A DNA stretch of 64,000 nucleotides. Source: Haematospirillum sp. H1815. GTDB taxonomy: Bacteria; Pseudomonadota; Alphaproteobacteria; Rhodospirillales; Rhodospirillaceae. Every line of letters starts with the position of its first letter. Position 1 is the first letter of the stretch. Below, one piece after another: positions 31,403 through 58,439 of the stretch. A program made the translations under genes and the position numbers. The DNA lies in contig NZ_JAAVTA010000008.1 of NCBI RefSeq assembly GCF_012102705.1, forward strand, positions 1-64,000. The letters are read 5' to 3'. The notes below the pieces were generated by a model. That model had not been told where the DNA came from, did no database searches, and worked only from the letters and a program-made list of their open reading frames with translations.

Positions 31403-33379
31403 TCAGATGCGGCTTTCTTCTGCCTTCTTGGCAACACTGATCTTCTCGTCCATATCCTCCAGAAATTCTCTGATCTCGGCTGTAATGACTTTGCTGCGTT
31501 CTTCATAAGCATTTGTAAATAGATCAAAGAATGCCTTCCTGTTATCCGGATCCTTGATCCTCGTTCCAACAAAGGCACCATACCGAATCATGGATTCAAA
31601 CGTTGCACTGGCCATACGGGCGATAGGCATGAATGTCGTGCTGGATGATAAAAGCTCCTGGACCTGCTTTAAAAGCGATCGATAGCTGGGTGCTTCACCC
31701 CGCAAATCCTCCAAGATGCACGAAAGCGCATCATCATAAGACTCTATACCTTGGAGCCAACTGGATATGGTAATGTCACGCAAAATATCCGGAGGCTGGA
31801 AAAGCGGGAGCTGACGCTCAACCCTTTCAAGTATTTTCGACTTGGATACAGTGGATACATCCAGACGAATTGCCCCGGCAGCCAAGGGGGAAAATCCTTC
31901 TATCTTGGCCCCGTCAGAGCAATTCCACACGTCAACAGACAGCAGACGGACCGTCTCCACAAAAACGCGACGGGACATATCCAGATGCCAAGCACTGCGG
32001 ACAGTGCCACCAAAATTTCCGGGCACAGTCCGAACCAGTTTATTTTCCCAATCCGTATCAACTTCAGACTTCCCATTGTAGTCAACATTATAGAAAACCT
32101 GCTCAGCATGATGCTTTTTAGGATCACGTGCACCACAGTCACAGCCAAAAAAATAGAATGTACGAAATCCAAGACGGACCATGCCGGAAAAGGCCGCATT
32201 TGCTACCAAAGGAAACGCGCCAAGCAGAGGCACTTCACGACCACCAAACAGATGGGTACTGGACAAGCCACTCCGGAAGTAAAACCAGACCGAACCAAAG
32301 AGCTTTCCAATCTCTGGCGTTACCGTCGTAGAAGCCATCAACCTGATTGTACTCAAATCATATTTTTCTGCAGCACCGGAGAGAATCTCCGCCACCAAAT
32401 CAACATTCTCATTCTCAACATGTATATCGGGTTTTATACCAGATTTCAGAAGAATCCCTAATGCAGTACCGCAGCTAACAACAATAGATCGATCACTCCA
32501 TTTACGAATATAGGCCATATCTTTATCAAGAGAAGGGCCAGACCCAACAATAAAAACTGGCATTCTCTGCTCAAGCATTTCTTGAGCACGAAGAAGCCTG
32601 AATGTGTACATATTGAAATTTGAAACTGTATTATAAACCATCTTTACTTCATCTTCATAAAATCCACTTGTTATATAGTGATACTTTATCATGTCGCTGA
32701 ATATATTGTATGATTCCTTTAGAGCCCAAGAATAGTAATGTACATAAATATATGATCCATCCAAGAATGCGTTACCTCTGTTTGTAACGACATCTTCTAT
32801 GGACCTGACAGCACGTTCTGGCATATCTGCTGTGATAAAATATAAAGAAGCACCCCGCTCATATATCTTCTCGATAACAGGAACCCAATCAATAACACTC
32901 ATTGAATGGATGATAAATTCCGCAACAGGCTCTATGATAATAAATGTATTAACATCTTCAGACGATAGAAGATCATTCAGATGATAACCAAGACCGAGAC
33001 CAAATACAAAACTATATTCAATCTCATCAAGAGGACACCCATCACATTCAATACTATTTTCCGATAAAAATCTTGCGCAGTCTTTAGTAAGAGGTAATCC
33101 AATCCCGGAAATATTACAATGATCAGGGCTACCAAAAACCAAACGGTCCATGGTATCAGCACGACCGCGCAACTGACCAGCCGTCCAAGAAGGAGCATCG
33201 CCCGGATAAAGGTTGGTACCCCCTATGTCAATATTGACCGCTTGGTCACCATTCCAGACAATGCGGGATGATGGCGTACCGATAGAACGCAAATCAGCAG
33301 CCAGCTTGGGAAAACGTTCTTCAAAAACCTTATAGTTACGAGCAAGACGTTCTTCAACTTGCTGATCAACAGCACTCAT
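31403..33379 (-). CDS. Maf-type motility-associated glycosyltransferase (DUF115)
   Basis: Maf proteins transfer nonulosonic acid sugars to flagellin. The 658-residue product contains the DUF115 core at about 285-470 (VFIVGSGPSLDKDMAYIRKW, VSCGTALGILLKSGIKPDIH, AFPLVANAAFSGMVRLGFRTFYFFGCD). The N-terminal part (about 60-250) and C-terminal helical part match full-length Maf. Base composition is uneven: two lines I counted (32641-32760) are 30% and 27% G+C, far below flanking genes, which suggests transfer. It follows the GT41 gene by 27 bases and is near the flagellin gene. Confidence 0.88.
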   Translation of the reverse strand: MSAVDQQVEERLARNYKVFEERFPKLAADLRSIGTPSSRIVWNGDQAVNIDIGGTNLYPGDAPSWTAGQLRGRADTMDRLVFGSPDHCNISGIGLPLTKDCARFLSENSIECDGCPLDEIEYSFVFGLGLGYHLNDLLSSEDVNTFIIIEPVAEFIIHSMSVIDWVPVIEKIYERGASLYFITADMPERAVRSIEDVVTNRGNAFLDGSYIYVHYYSWALKESYNIFSDMIKYHYITSGFYEDEVKMVYNTVSNFNMYTFRLLRAQEMLEQRMPVFIVGSGPSLDKDMAYIRKWSDRSIVVSCGTALGILLKSGIKPDIHVENENVDLVAEILSGAAEKYDLSTIRLMASTTVTPEIGKLFGSVWFYFRSGLSSTHLFGGREVPLLGAFPLVANAAFSGMVRLGFRTFYFFGCDCGARDPKKHHAEQVFYNVDYNGKSEVDTDWENKLVRTVPGNFGGTVRSAWHLDMSRRVFVETVRLLSVDVWNCSDGAKIEGFSPLAAGAIRLDVSTVSKSKILERVERQLPLFQPPDILRDITISSWLQGIESYDDALSCILEDLRGEAPSYRSLLKQVQELLSSSTTFMPIARMASATFESMIRYGAFVGTRIKDPDNRKAFFDLFTNAYEERSKVITAEIREFLEDMDEKISVAKKAEESRI

Positions 33380-33406: not shown

Positions 33407-35338
33407 TCAGCAATCAACGGGATCCCCGAATTTAGCGAGAAGATTATCGTAAATACCTTCCAGAGAGCGACAACGCGCCTTGAAATCAAAGGGTGGTGCC
33501 TGACGTAGGCGGTCACGGATCGTATCTCGAAAAGATACCAGACGCCCCCTGTCAGAAGCCCACTCCGCAGCCAGCTCCGCAACATTATCCGGCGTGGACC
33601 CCACACACGCCTCACCCAATCCAACCATAGTCAGGAAAGAGGAGACACCCCGCATGTGCCGCCCCTCTCCAGCCAAAGCCAGAACAGGTACACCAGCCCA
33701 TAATGCACTGACAGCATGCACTGCTGACCGAGGCCCGGGAGGACTGAGAACAAGATTACACTCACAAGCCAGAGCCGCTTCATCGTCAACCTGGATCAGG
33801 TCGATACGATGAGCAACGCCGAAGGTTCCAAACATTGTCAACAAACGGCCAACGGTCTCACCAAACGAGAAATCACGGTCAATTAACACGATCTTTGATT
33901 CAGGAATCTTCAGAAGACATGCCGCCGCCAAGGCAACCGAATAATAGTTCAGCTCACGGAAATAGATGGGGAAGCCTATCAGAAATTCGCCATCACATGC
34001 ACGATCCGATAGAGGAGCATCATCCGGGGGCAAACCGGTACATAAGGCCCCCCCATACAGAGATACAAGCTTCTGTTCATCAAGAGCAGGAGCAGTACGT
34101 ATGTGATCATCAAGAACCACAGCATCAAAGACGTCCGATCCAGGATTCCAGGGAAGCCCTCCCCACGACACCTGAAGCGGTGCCATCCTCGGAATGAAAG
34201 CCTCAAATTGGCGAGGGAGAGCAAGGCCAGACGTATCAACAAGGACGTCGATCTCTTCGCCCTGAACTAATCTGGAAAATGTAAAACGATCCATATCACT
34301 GATATTGTGCCACACAGAGAAGCAGTGCTGGAAAAGCCCGTTCCTGATTTCTGACAAGGCTCCTTCACCAAAACCAATAACACGCCAGCGCACAGGATTA
34401 TGAGCAGCAATAACCGCAGCCAACCCTAAATCATCCAGTGTCACGGTTCGCCGCGACACGACGTAGCCAATGGTTATCCGGCCAGAGCCACGTGAATACA
34501 GGGAAATCGCATCATCGCGCCCAACATCAACAAGAGCGGTGGAAATCAGATCTTGGTAACTCTTTTCCAGAACGCCCGCATCCTCCAACGGATTGGAAAG
34601 ACGATCAACAAAAGCATGTGCACGAGAAGAAAATGAGGAATCTACCCTGACAGCCCAGTCATGCACAACACGACCGGCTTCGTAATCACCTGTACTATAC
34701 AGCGCCTGACCAAGCGTCATGGCCAATGCACCACTATCGGGCAGAACATGCATAGCCGCCCTCAAACCGCTTTGAGCCGATAAGTACTGCTCCATGGACA
34801 TCATGCAAACCGCAATGGCCAAGTGTCCGTCCACACTGGCGGGATGAAACGCAACGTGCCCTCGAAAGCACTCCTCGGCGGCTACATAGTCTCCCGTTGC
34901 CAACAAGGCTACACCTCGCTGCATCAGGGAGTCATCTTCCATCATGGAAAACGCCTTCCCGGCATCAGGAATATGTGCGGACGCAAAGTCACAAAACCAC
35001 TCAACAGGAGAAGGATCAAGCGTGCCCGCGATCTTGAGATAATACGCTGCATCAGCCATAGATGACGCCTTGGCTGCAAGGGCAGAGAACAACTCGGCAG
35101 CTTCCTGACTGGATGGGTCCAGCTCCAGTGCTCGCTTGTTATGGCTATGCGCCTTACGCCACAAACCAAGGTTCAGGCACGAGAGCGCAGCCACAACAGA
35201 TGCAATCGTAAGATCCTGCACATCTCCATCCTGCTCCAGCACAGCCTCTGCGCATTCCAGAACAGAATGCCAGTCTGGTTCTGCGCCAGAAAGCAAGTCG
35301 CGGAGAGAGTTGATAGACAGGGAAGCAGTCTCGCTCAT
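33407..35338 (-). CDS. TPR-containing GT41-like glycosyltransferase
   Basis: The 643-residue product has N-terminal TPR-like repeats (about 40-245) and a C-terminal half resembling O-GlcNAc transferase family GT41: IDVLVDTSGLALPRQFEAF, then PLQVSWGGLPWNPGSDVFD, and a nucleotide-sugar region near the end (GVPVLALAGEGRHMRGVSSFL). Likely acts on flagellin or another cell-surface protein; the position between flaF and maf points to flagellin (inference). Start at 35338 (MSETASL) rather than three codons upstream. Confidence 0.78.
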   Translation of the reverse strand: MSETASLSINSLRDLLSGAEPDWHSVLECAEAVLEQDGDVQDLTIASVVAALSCLNLGLWRKAHSHNKRALELDPSSQEAAELFSALAAKASSMADAAYYLKIAGTLDPSPVEWFCDFASAHIPDAGKAFSMMEDDSLMQRGVALLATGDYVAAEECFRGHVAFHPASVDGHLAIAVCMMSMEQYLSAQSGLRAAMHVLPDSGALAMTLGQALYSTGDYEAGRVVHDWAVRVDSSFSSRAHAFVDRLSNPLEDAGVLEKSYQDLISTALVDVGRDDAISLYSRGSGRITIGYVVSRRTVTLDDLGLAAVIAAHNPVRWRVIGFGEGALSEIRNGLFQHCFSVWHNISDMDRFTFSRLVQGEEIDVLVDTSGLALPRQFEAFIPRMAPLQVSWGGLPWNPGSDVFDAVVLDDHIRTAPALDEQKLVSLYGGALCTGLPPDDAPLSDRACDGEFLIGFPIYFRELNYYSVALAAACLLKIPESKIVLIDRDFSFGETVGRLLTMFGTFGVAHRIDLIQVDDEAALACECNLVLSPPGPRSAVHAVSALWAGVPVLALAGEGRHMRGVSSFLTMVGLGEACVGSTPDNVAELAAEWASDRGRLVSFRDTIRDRLRQAPPFDFKARCRSLEGIYDNLLAKFGDPVDC

Positions 35339-35451
35339 TGCACACACTCACGAACAGCCGACCAGAACGGGTGCAAAATCACAATACACCACCAGACACT
35401 GTCGTAAATCTGTAAATCGCACGGCGGACCCCGAAACCAAGAACAAACAAG

Positions 35452-36357: not shown

Positions 36358-37278
36358 TTAACGGAACAGCCCCAGAACAGCCTGTTCAGACTGACCAGCG
36401 AACGACAGCGCCTGAATACCCAGCTGCTGCCGGGTCTGCAGAGCCAGAAGGTTTGCGCCTTCCTCGTTCAGGTCGGCGAGCGTCAGCTTGTCCGAACCTT
36501 CTGTCAGGATGTTGGTATAATTCTTGGTGAAATCCAGGCGAACCTGGAGGATAGCAACCGAGTTACCAAAAGCAGCTGACTTTGCACGCAAGTTGCTGAT
36601 CGTCTTTTCCAACCGGTTCACGACCAAGTCAGCCACCTTGTTAAAGGAGGCCAGATCTGCCGCAACGGACAGCTTGAACGCTGACAGGGCAGACGCAAAC
36701 CCAAGCTTGGTTACAATCGCCTTCCCGAGGTCGCCCGCGGATACCTTGAGGTCAAGAGCCACGCCGGCTGAGTTCAAGAAGAACTTGGACGCATTGAAGT
36801 TGATACCATTGACATCCAGCTTGGAGTCGGCCTTCTCCGAGAAGTAGACTGTCAACTTGGAGGCTGACGAGTTCAGGAGGTTCTGCCCCTGATAGGATGT
36901 GTCATCAACCAGCTTCTGGACCTGCCAAGCCAAGGAGGCAATCTGGGAGGTAAATTCCTTGCGCTGGTCCGCTGTAGAAGCACGCGAACTGTTGACAAGA
37001 CCACGCATCTGGTTGACGAATTGCTCCAGACGGGTAGTAGTCTCAACAACGACCTTCAGGGCATTAATCCCTTGGTCAATCGAGTCCTTACGGGCTGACA
37101 AGTCGCCCGCACGGTCAGTCAGAGACTTTGCGCTAAAGAACTTCAACGCATCATCAATAACCGAGGATACCGCCTTCCCGGTGGAAAGGCGATTCTGGGT
37201 CCGGTTAACAAAGGATTGGGTGGTCTGCAAAGAAAGCAGGTTTGACCTACTTGCAGCAGAAAGTGCAATATCCGTCAT
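36358..37278 (-). CDS. Flagellin
   Basis: The 306-residue product has the conserved D0/D1 ends: SNLLSLQTTQSFVNRTQNRL with STGKAVSSVIDDA, and C-terminal ANLLALQTRQQLGIQALSFA with EQAVLGLFR. The centre is short (about residues 145-195), so it lacks large exposed D2/D3 domains. ATG 37278 follows GGAGAG with 7 bases spacing. Monocistronic by its terminator. Neighbouring Maf and GT41 genes suggest it is glycosylated at Ser/Thr. Only one flagellin gene is in this window. Confidence 0.95.
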   Translation of the reverse strand: MTDIALSAASRSNLLSLQTTQSFVNRTQNRLSTGKAVSSVIDDALKFFSAKSLTDRAGDLSARKDSIDQGINALKVVVETTTRLEQFVNQMRGLVNSSRASTADQRKEFTSQIASLAWQVQKLVDDTSYQGQNLLNSSASKLTVYFSEKADSKLDVNGINFNASKFFLNSAGVALDLKVSAGDLGKAIVTKLGFASALSAFKLSVAADLASFNKVADLVVNRLEKTISNLRAKSAAFGNSVAILQVRLDFTKNYTNILTEGSDKLTLADLNEEGANLLALQTRQQLGIQALSFAGQSEQAVLGLFR

Positions 37279-37439
37279 AACGGTACTCTCCATTTCTAGA
37301 GAACATGCTGTCCGTTCTGGACGCAGGCATCCCCATCAAGAGATGCAGGAAGAACTATACAGACATAAAATCAAGATACCCAGATATTATTTTCTGATAT
37401 GGCATGGTTCTTAATAACTATATGAAGAAAGACCGCCAA

Positions 37440-54233: not shown

Positions 54234-57179
54234 TCAGAAGTTGACACGACCTGTCAGCATGCCGTTGTGACCGACATAGCCAGACCGCATTTCTGCGTCA
54301 TAGTCCGCACGAACTTCCCACACGCCATCGGCCGTGGTGTAGCCCAAGCCGGCACCAATGGTGCCACCAAACCGGGACCGCTTCAGGCCAGAGGTGTTGA
54401 ACAGGGTTGCATCGCCGGAATACTTACCGGTGCTGGTGGCATCATCACCGATGAAGTCATACAGCGCAGCAGCCCGCATTTCCGGACGAACCACAGAACC
54501 GCGCAGGGTCTGGTGTTCATAGGCCAGCGAACCACCCAGGCTCCCTTCCAGAATGCTGGTTGCCGAAGGATCAACAGTCATGTTGAACGCACCGGCACCG
54601 GTTTCCGTGTACTTGGAAGGATCGGTATAGGTGTAGGACAGACCTGCTTTCGGGGTCAGGGTGACCGCACCACGGTGCAGCGGGGATCCGGCGGCGACAG
54701 AGGCAGAGTACTGGTTGGCGTCGTACTTGCCTTTGGCGGTCCGGTCCAAACCACCGATGCTGATCTGGCGGGAGGTCTTCACGCTATTCTGGGCATAAGC
54801 CAGCTGACCTTCAACGAAGAAACCCTCTGGCTCATACGAACCGTACAGGGCAACCTGATAGGATGTAACATCGGTCTTGGTCTGGCTGGCACCCTTGCCC
54901 TTCATGTCGGACTTGGATGTGCTGAGCGCCAGACCAACGCGCAGGTCGTCGGCAACCGTGTTGTCCACACCAATGGTCATCCCATAGCTGTTGGTGCTGT
55001 TTCCAGCCACACCACCACGGGATTTCTGAGATGCGGTGCTGCCTGCGGCCTTGACCCAGGCGCCGTTGCGCAGGGTGCTGTCACCGGCGGCGGTACCGCT
55101 TTGCTGCAAGCCGGCCACATCGGTACCGGTACGGGCCGATGCCAAACGGGATGCAACAGCATCAGCCGCAGCGCGGGACGCGGTGTTGATAGCCTGGTTG
55201 GCCTGGGACACCGTGGATACAGCCGACTGACGAGCTGCATTTCCGGCATCGCTGTTTTTGCCAAGCGCCACATTCATGGCTGCACGAGCTTCGGCATCAC
55301 CCCCCAATGAACGAACCACAGCCTTGATAGCCTTGGCTTCATCGGTGCTGACCGACAACCTGCGGGCAATTTCACTGTCGCTGCGCGGAGAAACTGTTGT
55401 TGTGGTCAACGTTCTATCGTCAGAAACGATACTCTCGATCCGAGCCAGGGCGGTACCATAGTCACGACCGAACACTTCCTCAACAAACATTTTGTCGTTG
55501 GCACTCAGTGCAGCTGGAGGCGTATTGATCTTGAAGGACTTGAACTTTCCTTCCAGGACTGTGTTCTCAACACTAGGAATGATGGCAGATACTTTCTTTG
55601 TCGCGCTATCAGATGTAAAGCCTCCAATAGATTCTACTTCCAAGACGGCTTTGTTAGCTTTCATAGCTGCGTCGATAGCTTTCTGGGTAACAATGATCTT
55701 TGCTCCCCAGTATGAATACTCGCTACCGTCCTTCAGTGTACCTATTCTCTTGGTCTCGTCCTTCATTTCCGGGGCATGCAGTGTGCCATTGAGCTTGACC
55801 AGCCCATCAAGCCGCAGATTTGTGCCATTTTCCAGATGCAAGTTCTTTGCATGCACTTCGCCGGAACCAAGAGCAAGCGATCCTTTCTCCAACCTGAGTT
55901 CATTCAGGGCATGGTTCTTCGTGCCGATTTGTCCGATTCTGGATCCTTCGGCAGCATACAGGCGCAGGACGCCCTGCTCATGAGTCTTGGTTTCGACCTT
56001 GCCAATGTTGAAGCCTTGGACGTTTTTAGCGCTGCCGCCGATGCTGTTGGTGCCCGGTCCATCAAGCACCAAGGTTCCTGTGCCAACATAGCCCAGGTTG
56101 ATCGCATTGCCAGCGTCAGCCGCACGGGCCGTTACTGTTTTCAGGGTCAGCTTGTCGGCGTGAACATCGCCACCGGTTGCAACGGCTTTGGATTCGGTTG
56201 CGTTGATGGTGACATCAGCAAAACGCTTGCCGGGGGTACCGATGTTGCCAACGGTGCCGCCCTTTTTCGTTACTTTGCCATCACCATCCACGGTATCTGC
56301 AGCAGCGTGCAGTTCCAGCTTGCCCTGGCCGTTCTTGGTGGTGGAGACATTGCCAAGGTCGAAGCCACCAACCGCGCCAGCGGAGCTCTTACCGATAACA
56401 TGGCTGCCTTCACCATTGATCACCACGGCCTTTGCTTCGGTCCGACCGGACTGTGCCGTAAAGGTCTTTCCGGCATTCATGGTCAATACGTCGGTATAGG
56501 TCTCGTCAACGGTAACATTAGCCTTGTCAGCGTTCAGAACAGCGAACGGCTCCGGCTTGTCTGCCGTACCAATGCTGGCAACAATGTTGTCATGCCGCTT
56601 TGCCTGTGTCAGGAGCTTTTGCCCCAGGTCCCATGCATCCAGCAGCGCCTGTGCTTTTTCTTTGCCAGCATCATTATTTGTAAAATAATTGGCGAGGTCA
56701 TTGAAACCAGAAGCTAGCTTGCTGGCATCAATCTTAGTGCTACCAAACAACGCCTTTGCGGCACTAGATATTGTAGCAAAATTGGGAGTCTCTTTGACCA
56801 ATTCTGTGCGCAATGCGTTGATCAACGCATCAGTAACACCTGCACCGGCAATCTCAGAGATCTGCTCCACGAGCTTGGCCGGCGTAGCAGCCGCATCCGT
56901 TGCAAGAGATGTGGCAAGTATTGCATTCAAGGCGTGGTATTTCCCATCGGCCGCAATATCCGACGCCTTGATCAGACCCTGAGGGTTTGCAGCAATACCA
57001 TTTACAATGACGCCACCGCCGTTGCCAACCTTACCTTCGGCAGCGTAGCCGCCGTTTTGTACGACCACTTCCGCCTGTGCCGGTGCTGCCGACGAGGTTG
57101 CCCCTGCCACGCCGGGAATTGCCATAACAACTGCGGCCAGCGCCGTTGTTGCCAAAAGATGCTTACGTTTTTGTAACAC
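54234..57179 (-). CDS. Autotransporter with Sca/OmpB-like barrel and repeats
   Basis: About 981 residues. The start is a GTG at 57179, eight bases after AGGAAGAG, giving a clean signal peptide (LLATTALAAVVMAIPGVAGA). Residues about 35-225 are mixed helical; about 225-500 form a beta-rich passenger with two related copies of a ~120-residue unit (near 270 and 390) sharing the patterns GNIGT/GQIGT and GDVHADKL/GEVHAKNL. A linker precedes a C-terminal beta barrel (about 700-981) ending in GRVNF. Barrel blocks such as GKYDANQYSASVAAG and LTPKAGLSYTYTD and the final segment resemble Rickettsia Sca5/OmpB by my recollection. It is an exported surface protein, perhaps an adhesin. Confidence 0.88.
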   Translation of the reverse strand: MLQKRKHLLATTALAAVVMAIPGVAGATSSAAPAQAEVVVQNGGYAAEGKVGNGGGVIVNGIAANPQGLIKASDIAADGKYHALNAILATSLATDAAATPAKLVEQISEIAGAGVTDALINALRTELVKETPNFATISSAAKALFGSTKIDASKLASGFNDLANYFTNNDAGKEKAQALLDAWDLGQKLLTQAKRHDNIVASIGTADKPEPFAVLNADKANVTVDETYTDVLTMNAGKTFTAQSGRTEAKAVVINGEGSHVIGKSSAGAVGGFDLGNVSTTKNGQGKLELHAAADTVDGDGKVTKKGGTVGNIGTPGKRFADVTINATESKAVATGGDVHADKLTLKTVTARAADAGNAINLGYVGTGTLVLDGPGTNSIGGSAKNVQGFNIGKVETKTHEQGVLRLYAAEGSRIGQIGTKNHALNELRLEKGSLALGSGEVHAKNLHLENGTNLRLDGLVKLNGTLHAPEMKDETKRIGTLKDGSEYSYWGAKIIVTQKAIDAAMKANKAVLEVESIGGFTSDSATKKVSAIIPSVENTVLEGKFKSFKINTPPAALSANDKMFVEEVFGRDYGTALARIESIVSDDRTLTTTTVSPRSDSEIARRLSVSTDEAKAIKAVVRSLGGDAEARAAMNVALGKNSDAGNAARQSAVSTVSQANQAINTASRAAADAVASRLASARTGTDVAGLQQSGTAAGDSTLRNGAWVKAAGSTASQKSRGGVAGNSTNSYGMTIGVDNTVADDLRVGLALSTSKSDMKGKGASQTKTDVTSYQVALYGSYEPEGFFVEGQLAYAQNSVKTSRQISIGGLDRTAKGKYDANQYSASVAAGSPLHRGAVTLTPKAGLSYTYTDPSKYTETGAGAFNMTVDPSATSILEGSLGGSLAYEHQTLRGSVVRPEMRAAALYDFIGDDATSTGKYSGDATLFNTSGLKRSRFGGTIGAGLGYTTADGVWEVRADYDAEMRSGYVGHNGMLTGRVNF

Positions 57180-57545
57180 GATCGGTTCTCTTCCTGTGTT
57201 GTGTTGATGCCAACCACACGCACCGGACATGGACACCTGCGGTTATGGGGTTCCCTGCCTGCGCGCCGGACTCTCTTGATAATACGTTCCGGCCGTGGGT
57301 CAACATGCAAAACACACTTATCATGCTGATTTTATTTGGTTTTTTAACTCCATAATTGCCATTCGCACAAACTGCACTTTTTCGTTGCCCCCCTGTTACA
57401 CAGATGCCACAGCGCGGCAAATGCAATGATTGCTGTTTGCCAGAACTTATATTCATGGTTGAAACGCGAAGACACGTTTGCCATGACGCCTTTCCCCGGG
57501 TGGTGTACACAAGCCACGCCAACCTTGATCACGGAGCCTAGGTCC
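57180..57545. other. Autotransporter/lipoprotein divergent region
   Basis: These 366 bases between the GTG start of the autotransporter and the rightward lipoprotein gene contain no gene I can support. They hold the autotransporter ribosome site (AGGAAGAG at 57188-57195) and an A+T-rich stretch near 57310-57360 likely to be part of its promoter. No terminator or clear regulator site was seen. Confidence 0.4.
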
Positions 57546-58439
57546 ATGACATCCCACGCGGAAACACCTGTATCCCGGTGCATACGTGCCATGGGCCTGC
57601 ATCGCTGGCTGGCCGTTCTGGTGATGGTGGGACTGGCTGGGTGCGGGGGCGGGCCTTTGGGGGATCGTCTCGATTCGGCGCTGGCGACAGGCCAGGCACA
57701 GGGTATGCAGCCGCAATGGCTGGACAGCGGGCCGTTCACCCTGTTGGCACAGATACGGATACAGGCGCCGGGGCAACCGTTGCGGCTTTATATAGAAGGC
57801 GATGGCTTTGCCTGGATCACCCGCACCCGGCCTTCGCCCGATCCCACTCCGCACCGCCCGGTGGCGTTATGGCTGGCGACCCGTGACCCGGCACCCAACG
57901 TGGCGTGGCTGGCGCGTCCGTGCCAATACAGCATGCTGGCCCGGCCCGGAACGGTGTGCGACCGGTCGTACTGGACCCATGCCCGCATGGCTCCTACCGT
58001 CATAGAGGCTGTAGATGCCGCCGTGACTGCCCTGCGCAAACAGGCCGGGGCCACAGCGGTGGAGCTGGTCGGTTATTCCGGCGGGGGTGGCATTGCCGCC
58101 ATTCTGACCGCGCGCCGGGGCGATGTAGTGGCTTTGCGCACCGTGGCCGGCAACCTGGATTCCGGGGCCTTTGTCCGGCACCATCGGGTTTCCCCCATGA
58201 CCGGATCCATCGATGCTGTTACGGAGGCTGCGCGCACACGCTCTGTGCCACAAATTCATTTTGTCGGGGAGCATGACCGCACTGTTCCCCCGTTCCTGGC
58301 CGATACCTTCATCCGCCGTGCTGGGTCGGCAGCTGTCAAGGTGGTGGTTCCCGGACTGGATCATGCCCGCGGGTGGAACACCGCATGGCCGGAGTTGCTG
58401 CAGCACCCCCTGCCGGATGTGACCAAGGCGTCACCGTGA
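57546..58439 (+). CDS. Alpha/beta-hydrolase lipoprotein
   Basis: About 297 residues with a lipoprotein signal (LAVLVMVGLAGC) followed by an alpha/beta-hydrolase-like domain: nucleophile elbow VELVGYSGGGGIAA (Ser in GYSGG), a late acid in VGEHDRTVPPF and His in VVPGLDHARGWN. Likely an exported serine hydrolase of unknown substrate. The gene is noticeably G+C-rich (the line 57601-57660 is 70% by count), unlike the autotransporter upstream. Start 57546 has GGAG at 9 bases; 57591 is an alternative. Confidence 0.75.
   Translation: MTSHAETPVSRCIRAMGLHRWLAVLVMVGLAGCGGGPLGDRLDSALATGQAQGMQPQWLDSGPFTLLAQIRIQAPGQPLRLYIEGDGFAWITRTRPSPDPTPHRPVALWLATRDPAPNVAWLARPCQYSMLARPGTVCDRSYWTHARMAPTVIEAVDAAVTALRKQAGATAVELVGYSGGGGIAAILTARRGDVVALRTVAGNLDSGAFVRHHRVSPMTGSIDAVTEAARTRSVPQIHFVGEHDRTVPPFLADTFIRRAGSAAVKVVVPGLDHARGWNTAWPELLQHPLPDVTKASP

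Follow-up and report, generated by a model that had tools for sequence, protein, structure and literature searches.

The locus described here raises the question whether a surface autotransporter of a Rhodospirillales bacterium is akin to the Sca/OmpB antigens of Rickettsia, and by which route it could have come to be so. It lies in a 64,000-nt stretch of Haematospirillum sp. H1815 (contig NZ_JAAVTA010000008.1), hereafter the window, and the first-pass annotation had found rickettsial likeness in both its barrel and its passenger and had proposed an ancestral or transferred adhesin in a free-living-looking genome. The last description is misleading and the premise built on it weak, as the genus is Haematospirillum, members of which have been isolated from human blood and are also known from cellulitis and from river water (PMC9514349, PMC12704522). 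A literature search found no adhesin or autotransporter described for this genus.

The autotransporter is a real gene on the minus strand, the strand being an addition to the earlier description. Its frame is open from a GTG at 57179, preceded by AGGAAG, to a stop at 54234, and the 981 aa encoded include no cysteine. PF03797 was the single Pfam domain found; it covers aa 707-961 (E 2.9e-54; 184.9 bits, the cut-off being 26; profile positions 1-255), and this full-length C-terminal barrel with its 12 modelled strands, together with a KRK-hydrophobic-AGA N-terminus and a final F read from the sequence, is that of a type Va autotransporter. Both segments singled out earlier as barrel sequence are present, GKYDANQYSASVAAG at aa 817 and GRVNF as the end of the protein (aa 977-981). 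The GC and GC3 of the gene are in line with those of its neighbours, and the search upstream of it for a Fur box or promoter gave nothing above chance level. The genome, of 2.27 Mb, holds three PF03797 genes. The third of these, which has type I secretion-like genes next to it, encodes a distant autotransporter of 608 aa that contains GGGSTDTGG repeats (L023:5832-7655, G000:C20); its N-terminal part looks lost or broken in Haematospirillum sp. H4485, since a 339-aa frame alone remains there (L022:4267-5286). Elsewhere in the window, a flagellin-like gene (36358-37293) lies near genes for a Maf-type flagellin glycosyltransferase (31403-33379) and a TPR/GT41-like protein (33407-35347), which suggests a glycosylated flagellum.

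Table 1. Features of the autotransporter locus and the divergent hydrolase gene, in window coordinates.
Feature	Position	Strand	Remarks
Type Va autotransporter	54234..57179	-	GTG start, 981 aa
Signal peptide	57099..57179	-	aa 1-27; by sequence; 100% identical in H4485
N-terminal passenger head	56469..57098	-	aa 28-237; partly helical prediction at aa 103-193, low confidence
Beta-solenoid stalk	55770..56582	-	aa 200-470; AlphaFold2 models
Repeat unit 1	56478..56582	-	aa 200-234; VASIGTADKP...DVLTM
Repeat unit 2	56142..56252	-	aa 310-346; VGNIGTPGKR...GDVHADKLTL
Repeat unit 3	55833..55937	-	aa 415-449; IGQIGTKNHA...GEVHAKNLHL
Mixed alpha/beta membrane-proximal passenger part	55380..55721	-	aa 487-600; AlphaFold2 models
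Helical linker into barrel	55137..55379	-	aa 601-681; AlphaFold2
Low-confidence loop	55071..55130	-	aa 684-703; holds the predicted cut site
Beta-barrel, 12 strands	54237..55067	-	aa 705-981; rOmpA-leaning
Divergent intergenic region	57180..57590	.	first ~140 bases on the autotransporter side 98-100% identical in H4485
RapL-like lipoprotein alpha/beta hydrolase	57591..58439	+	282 aa; lipobox LAGC18, D71, GYS163GGG, H258xxGW

The repeat pattern IGT...GxVxAxxL reported for the passenger proved real. There are IGT motifs at aa 203, 313, 418 and 479, of which the first three each open a repeat unit, these units being spaced 105-110 aa apart, and the strict form IGT..G[DE]V[HY]AxxLxL was found once in the passenger and in 0 of 20,000 shuffles. 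Single copies of the repeat unit are also carried by related Rhodospirillales passengers (E 5e-5 and 0.002; best shuffle 0.06). AlphaFold2 modelled the protein as a low-confidence, partly helical head, a beta-solenoid over about aa 200-470, a mixed domain ending at 600, a helical linker ending at 681 and a barrel that starts at 705, with a mean pLDDT of 67 for the whole protein and 74 for the passenger modelled alone; by its position, the mixed domain at aa 487-600 is an autochaperone candidate. The passenger on its own had no meaningful match in Pfam or NCBIfam and none to rickettsial families at E up to 10, its best Foldseek match was not significant (E 0.1), and phmmer with the whole protein found no match in the PDB. 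The passenger was therefore rejected as a Sca passenger on the profile searches. Among eight passengers scanned, a single one, belonging to a barrel-kin autotransporter of another alphaproteobacterial family (L027:1-1407), matched the rOmpA passenger model (positions 635-931, E 1.1e-5).

The likeness to Rickettsia surface antigens thus stands for the barrel and falls for the passenger. In NCBIfam the protein matched rOmpA (6.5e-26), OmpB (1.1e-17) and Sca2 (4e-4), every match being confined to the barrel, and the family cut-offs were missed widely (rOmpA about 90 versus 2600 bits, OmpB 63 versus 2500, Sca2 18 versus 2200). Three full-length profiles, rOmpA, OmpB and, as a control, the Pseudomonas protease EprS, were each run over one set of 385 Alphaproteobacteria. 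With rOmpA, two barrels of the window genome ranked first and second (104 and 93 bits; next 70), with OmpB they ranked second and fourth, and with EprS they were far down (61 and 57 bits, the maximum being 371); from these high and low ranks, the lean towards rOmpA/OmpB is real and specific. It is common to the barrels of Rhodospirillaceae UBA6219 (91 bits), a further Rhodospirillales family (f17, 85 bits) and a marine alphaproteobacterium (93 bits), while for Methylotenera and the single-cell genome AM-377 the lean is to EprS. The protein could instead be a type Va autotransporter of a generic kind, its barrel a common alphaproteobacterial one, its neighbour an unrelated esterase or lipase and nothing about the locus rickettsial. 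The generic models (Pfam and TIGR01414) do score best for the barrel, and the rOmpA profile also matches the third, distant barrel of the genome (58 bits) and Methylotenera barrels (70 bits), which speaks for such a reading; the specificity of the lean against the EprS control speaks against it, and we consider it unlikely, also on the hydrolase data given below.

Comparison with the known systems places the protein more closely. Sca proteins fall into three groups of a barrel classification, rOmpA/ScaA in group 5, rOmpB in group 13 and Sca1/Sca2/ScaC in group 14 (PMC9289746), and Sca/OmpB does not therefore denote a single type of barrel. With rOmpA (Sca0), whose profile (NF052635) scored highest for the barrel among the full-length family profiles, at 94-110 bits and in the barrel alone, it shares the state of a surface autotransporter with a repeat passenger, but that passenger is unrelated by profile, the score is far under the family cut-off and the bacterial order is another. 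The second rickettsial barrel profile is that of rOmpB (Sca5), with a weaker score (63-68 bits) and again an unrelated passenger. With the whole model, Foldseek found only barrels (EstA, AaaA, NalP and EspP; E 2e-14 to 1e-7), which share the 12-strand autotransporter fold at 15-18% identity and carry other passengers. The autotransporter is ordinary in kind and not a member of the Sca family.

Of the two origins proposed earlier, transfer found no support. A gain of the gene by horizontal transfer from Rickettsiales would agree with the top rOmpA-profile rank in the class sample; yet in a quick tree of 113 barrels, which is not Sca-rooted, as the genome sets and plasmids searched held no Rickettsia barrels, the window barrel grouped with its paralogue and UBA6219 (the nearest barrel, 58% identity) in a 14-row Rhodospirillales/alphaproteobacterial clade with an SH-aLRT of 96. 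Since the nearest kin of the barrel are of these groups, the GC and GC3 are native, and the locus is syntenic in both Haematospirillum species, we rejected transfer on tree, composition and synteny and regard it as highly improbable. The lean towards rOmpA more likely came through alphaproteobacterial ancestry, and an ancestral origin of the putative adhesin is possible.

Divergent from the autotransporter lies a gene for a lipoprotein of the alpha/beta hydrolase fold, which reads GLDH258ARGW around its putative catalytic His and has homologues at 31-48% identity. In a 21-sequence alignment C18, E-G-D71-G, RPCQ, S163 and H258 were invariant, with xxGW after the His in nearly all. This arrangement is that of RapL, the Rickettsia peptidase lipoprotein (C19, 31 kDa) that cuts rOmpA and rOmpB, needs D73, S160 and H257, and was described as largely restricted to Rickettsiales with distant similarities elsewhere only (PMC10414592). 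Both are lipoproteins of about 30 kDa with the lipid Cys at 18 or 19 (LAGC in the hydrolase) and an HxxGW motif, and D71, S163 and H258 correspond by position, within three residues, to the RapL catalytic residues. The printed RapL peptide ..NISHTKGWDK and ..NTSHTKGWETF of one family member share SHTKGW, a comparison of a single peptide. The hydrolase is thus most likely RapL-type, with its putative homology to RapL judged from the architecture, the positions of these residues and the single peptide printed for RapL. Unlike RapL, the Haematospirillum gene adjoins that of its presumed substrate; a literature search found no published account of linkage between RapL and an autotransporter.

The pairing of hydrolase and barrel recurs well beyond Haematospirillum. 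When loci were fetched on barrel similarity and nothing else, the hydrolase lay beside the barrel gene in about 20 of them, usually directly downstream. A hydrolase profile matched in 66 of the 385 genomes, with exactly one match in the window genome, and flanks of about 6 kb were fetched to both sides of 74 matches. In 34 of the 74 loci a barrel gene lay within 4 kb, mostly 0-250 bp off, a rate that may be high because the profile was built from barrel-linked members (at least 2 of the 34 paired loci came from genomes that supplied profile rows); the other 40 had no barrel in the fetched region, and several of these genomes carry barrels elsewhere. With about 1.3 barrels per genome (114 in 86), the chance expectation is about 0.6% per region, and even at an assumed chance rate of 5% the binomial P is 1e-24. 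In other genomes the hydrolase is mostly downstream of and co-directional with the barrel, whereas in the window the two diverge. Plasmids carry the pair as well, such as NZ_CP136683 of Thalassospira lucentensis (barrel 138604-139455, hydrolase 139689-140405) and NZ_CP029096 of Pseudomonas aeruginosa (barrel 232653-233471, hydrolase 231747-232466). Among Pseudomonas plasmids, 129 had the hydrolase and 128 a related barrel; the Pseudomonas records compared among the matches listed showed the adjacent pair on large plasmids of clinical and plant isolates. At several loci (L212, L214, L216, L219, L220, L235, L238 and L244) the hydrolase is paired with mostly-barrel frames of 350-450 aa that have little or no passenger.

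A candidate cut site accompanies the pairing. The known rOmpB site (A/GDE, the slash marking the cut) falls on a conserved A/GD in the window protein, and position 1362 of the OmpB profile is at [AST]-G-[DEN], or no more than two residues from it, in the seven barrels whose match starts near the site. The site predicted for the window protein, A698/G699-D700, is in the low-confidence loop that immediately precedes the barrel, and the G-D motif is present in both paralogues of the autotransporter. Of 16 barrels from hydrolase-bearing genomes, 14 have [AGST]G[DE] before strand 1, compared with 3 of 13 from genomes that lack the hydrolase (p 0.0007), this stricter pattern having been picked after a looser one gave p 0.04, yet matching rOmpB's own residues.

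These data bear on two alternatives. For the reading of a generic autotransporter beside an unrelated esterase or lipase, the weak links of the hydrolase to esterases in the PDB and NCBIfam can be cited, but the hydrolase is barrel-linked far above chance, has the RapL residue layout, and its presence tracks the G-D site. Alternatively, the lipoprotein might belong with the barrel and yet act otherwise than by cutting the passenger, namely in passenger de-esterification, quality control of stalled barrels or EstA-type lipid chemistry. The fold family is mostly esterases, and some partners, being barrel-only frames of 350-400 aa, offer little passenger to cut; nevertheless, mutation of the same residue types, D, S and H, deprives RapL of its rOmpB cutting (PMC10414592), and the motif of the cut site is conserved at this locus, so that we think such another activity improbable.

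At this locus the distal end of the passenger differs entirely between the two Haematospirillum genomes compared, that of the window and that of Haematospirillum sp. H4485. DNA identity is 98-100% over the upstream region and the signal peptide, up to a sharp break at about 57100, from which the head cannot be aligned until about 56366; part of the stalk then aligns again with 88% identity, and identity in the barrel is 91-98%. Against H4485, dS is 0.12 for the barrel but climbs to 0.53 in one part of the passenger and 1.47 in another. The head was absent from 60 related genomes and from the rest of its own genome, that is, no silent cassette was found. By contrast, the C19 paralogue is collinear between both species (L016:3136-8013, G000:C19; 1625 aa, of which an N-terminal region of about 850 aa is helical by eye and is followed by a short beta part). 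The pattern in these two genomes agrees with an exchange of the surface-distal end, which one would expect of a variable adhesin. The difference could also be due to ordinary rapid divergence, or to domains lost and gained separately, as just two genomes stand behind the comparison and the remaining passenger diverges too (48-58% aa identity over aa 347-600). The sharpness of the DNA break and the step in dS from barrel to passenger are not expected of simple divergence, and recombinational replacement is preferred to this somewhat doubtful explanation. Sca1 similarly has a conserved barrel under purifying selection and a divergent N-terminal passenger (PMC1388218), although its passenger is predicted to be alpha-helical (PMC9289746) and diverges by point changes, while in Haematospirillum the whole head differs.

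We therefore favor, with a fair degree of confidence, a two-gene surface-display module, in which a RapL-type peptidase would cut the passenger of the autotransporter from its barrel. In this model, Sec would export the autotransporter, and the rOmpA-leaning barrel of 12 strands would insert into the outer membrane and pass the passenger out, displaying the beta-solenoid stalk with its three IGT repeats and the species-variable N-terminal head. The lipoprotein serine hydrolase would most likely then cut the passenger off on the periplasmic side, at the A/G-D site before strand 1, and the cut passenger would probably stay bound as an adhesin, by analogy with rOmpB. With a RapL-like peptidase linked to it and its predicted cut site conserved, the window protein seems to work like a processed rickettsial autotransporter.

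More broadly, the maturation of rOmpA and OmpB by RapL may descend from a widespread bacterial module of an autotransporter and a dedicated lipoprotein peptidase with a conserved [AST]/G-D site, which would be intact in Rhodospirillales, other alphaproteobacteria, Methylotenera and Pseudomonas megaplasmids, the Haematospirillum version displaying an adhesin with an exchangeable head; we hold the case for this descent to be evenly balanced. If the pairing is right, many cultivable systems would become available for studying barrel cutting from the periplasmic side, the cut site would be predictable from sequence, and a likely surface adhesin with a variable head would be named in an emerging human pathogen.
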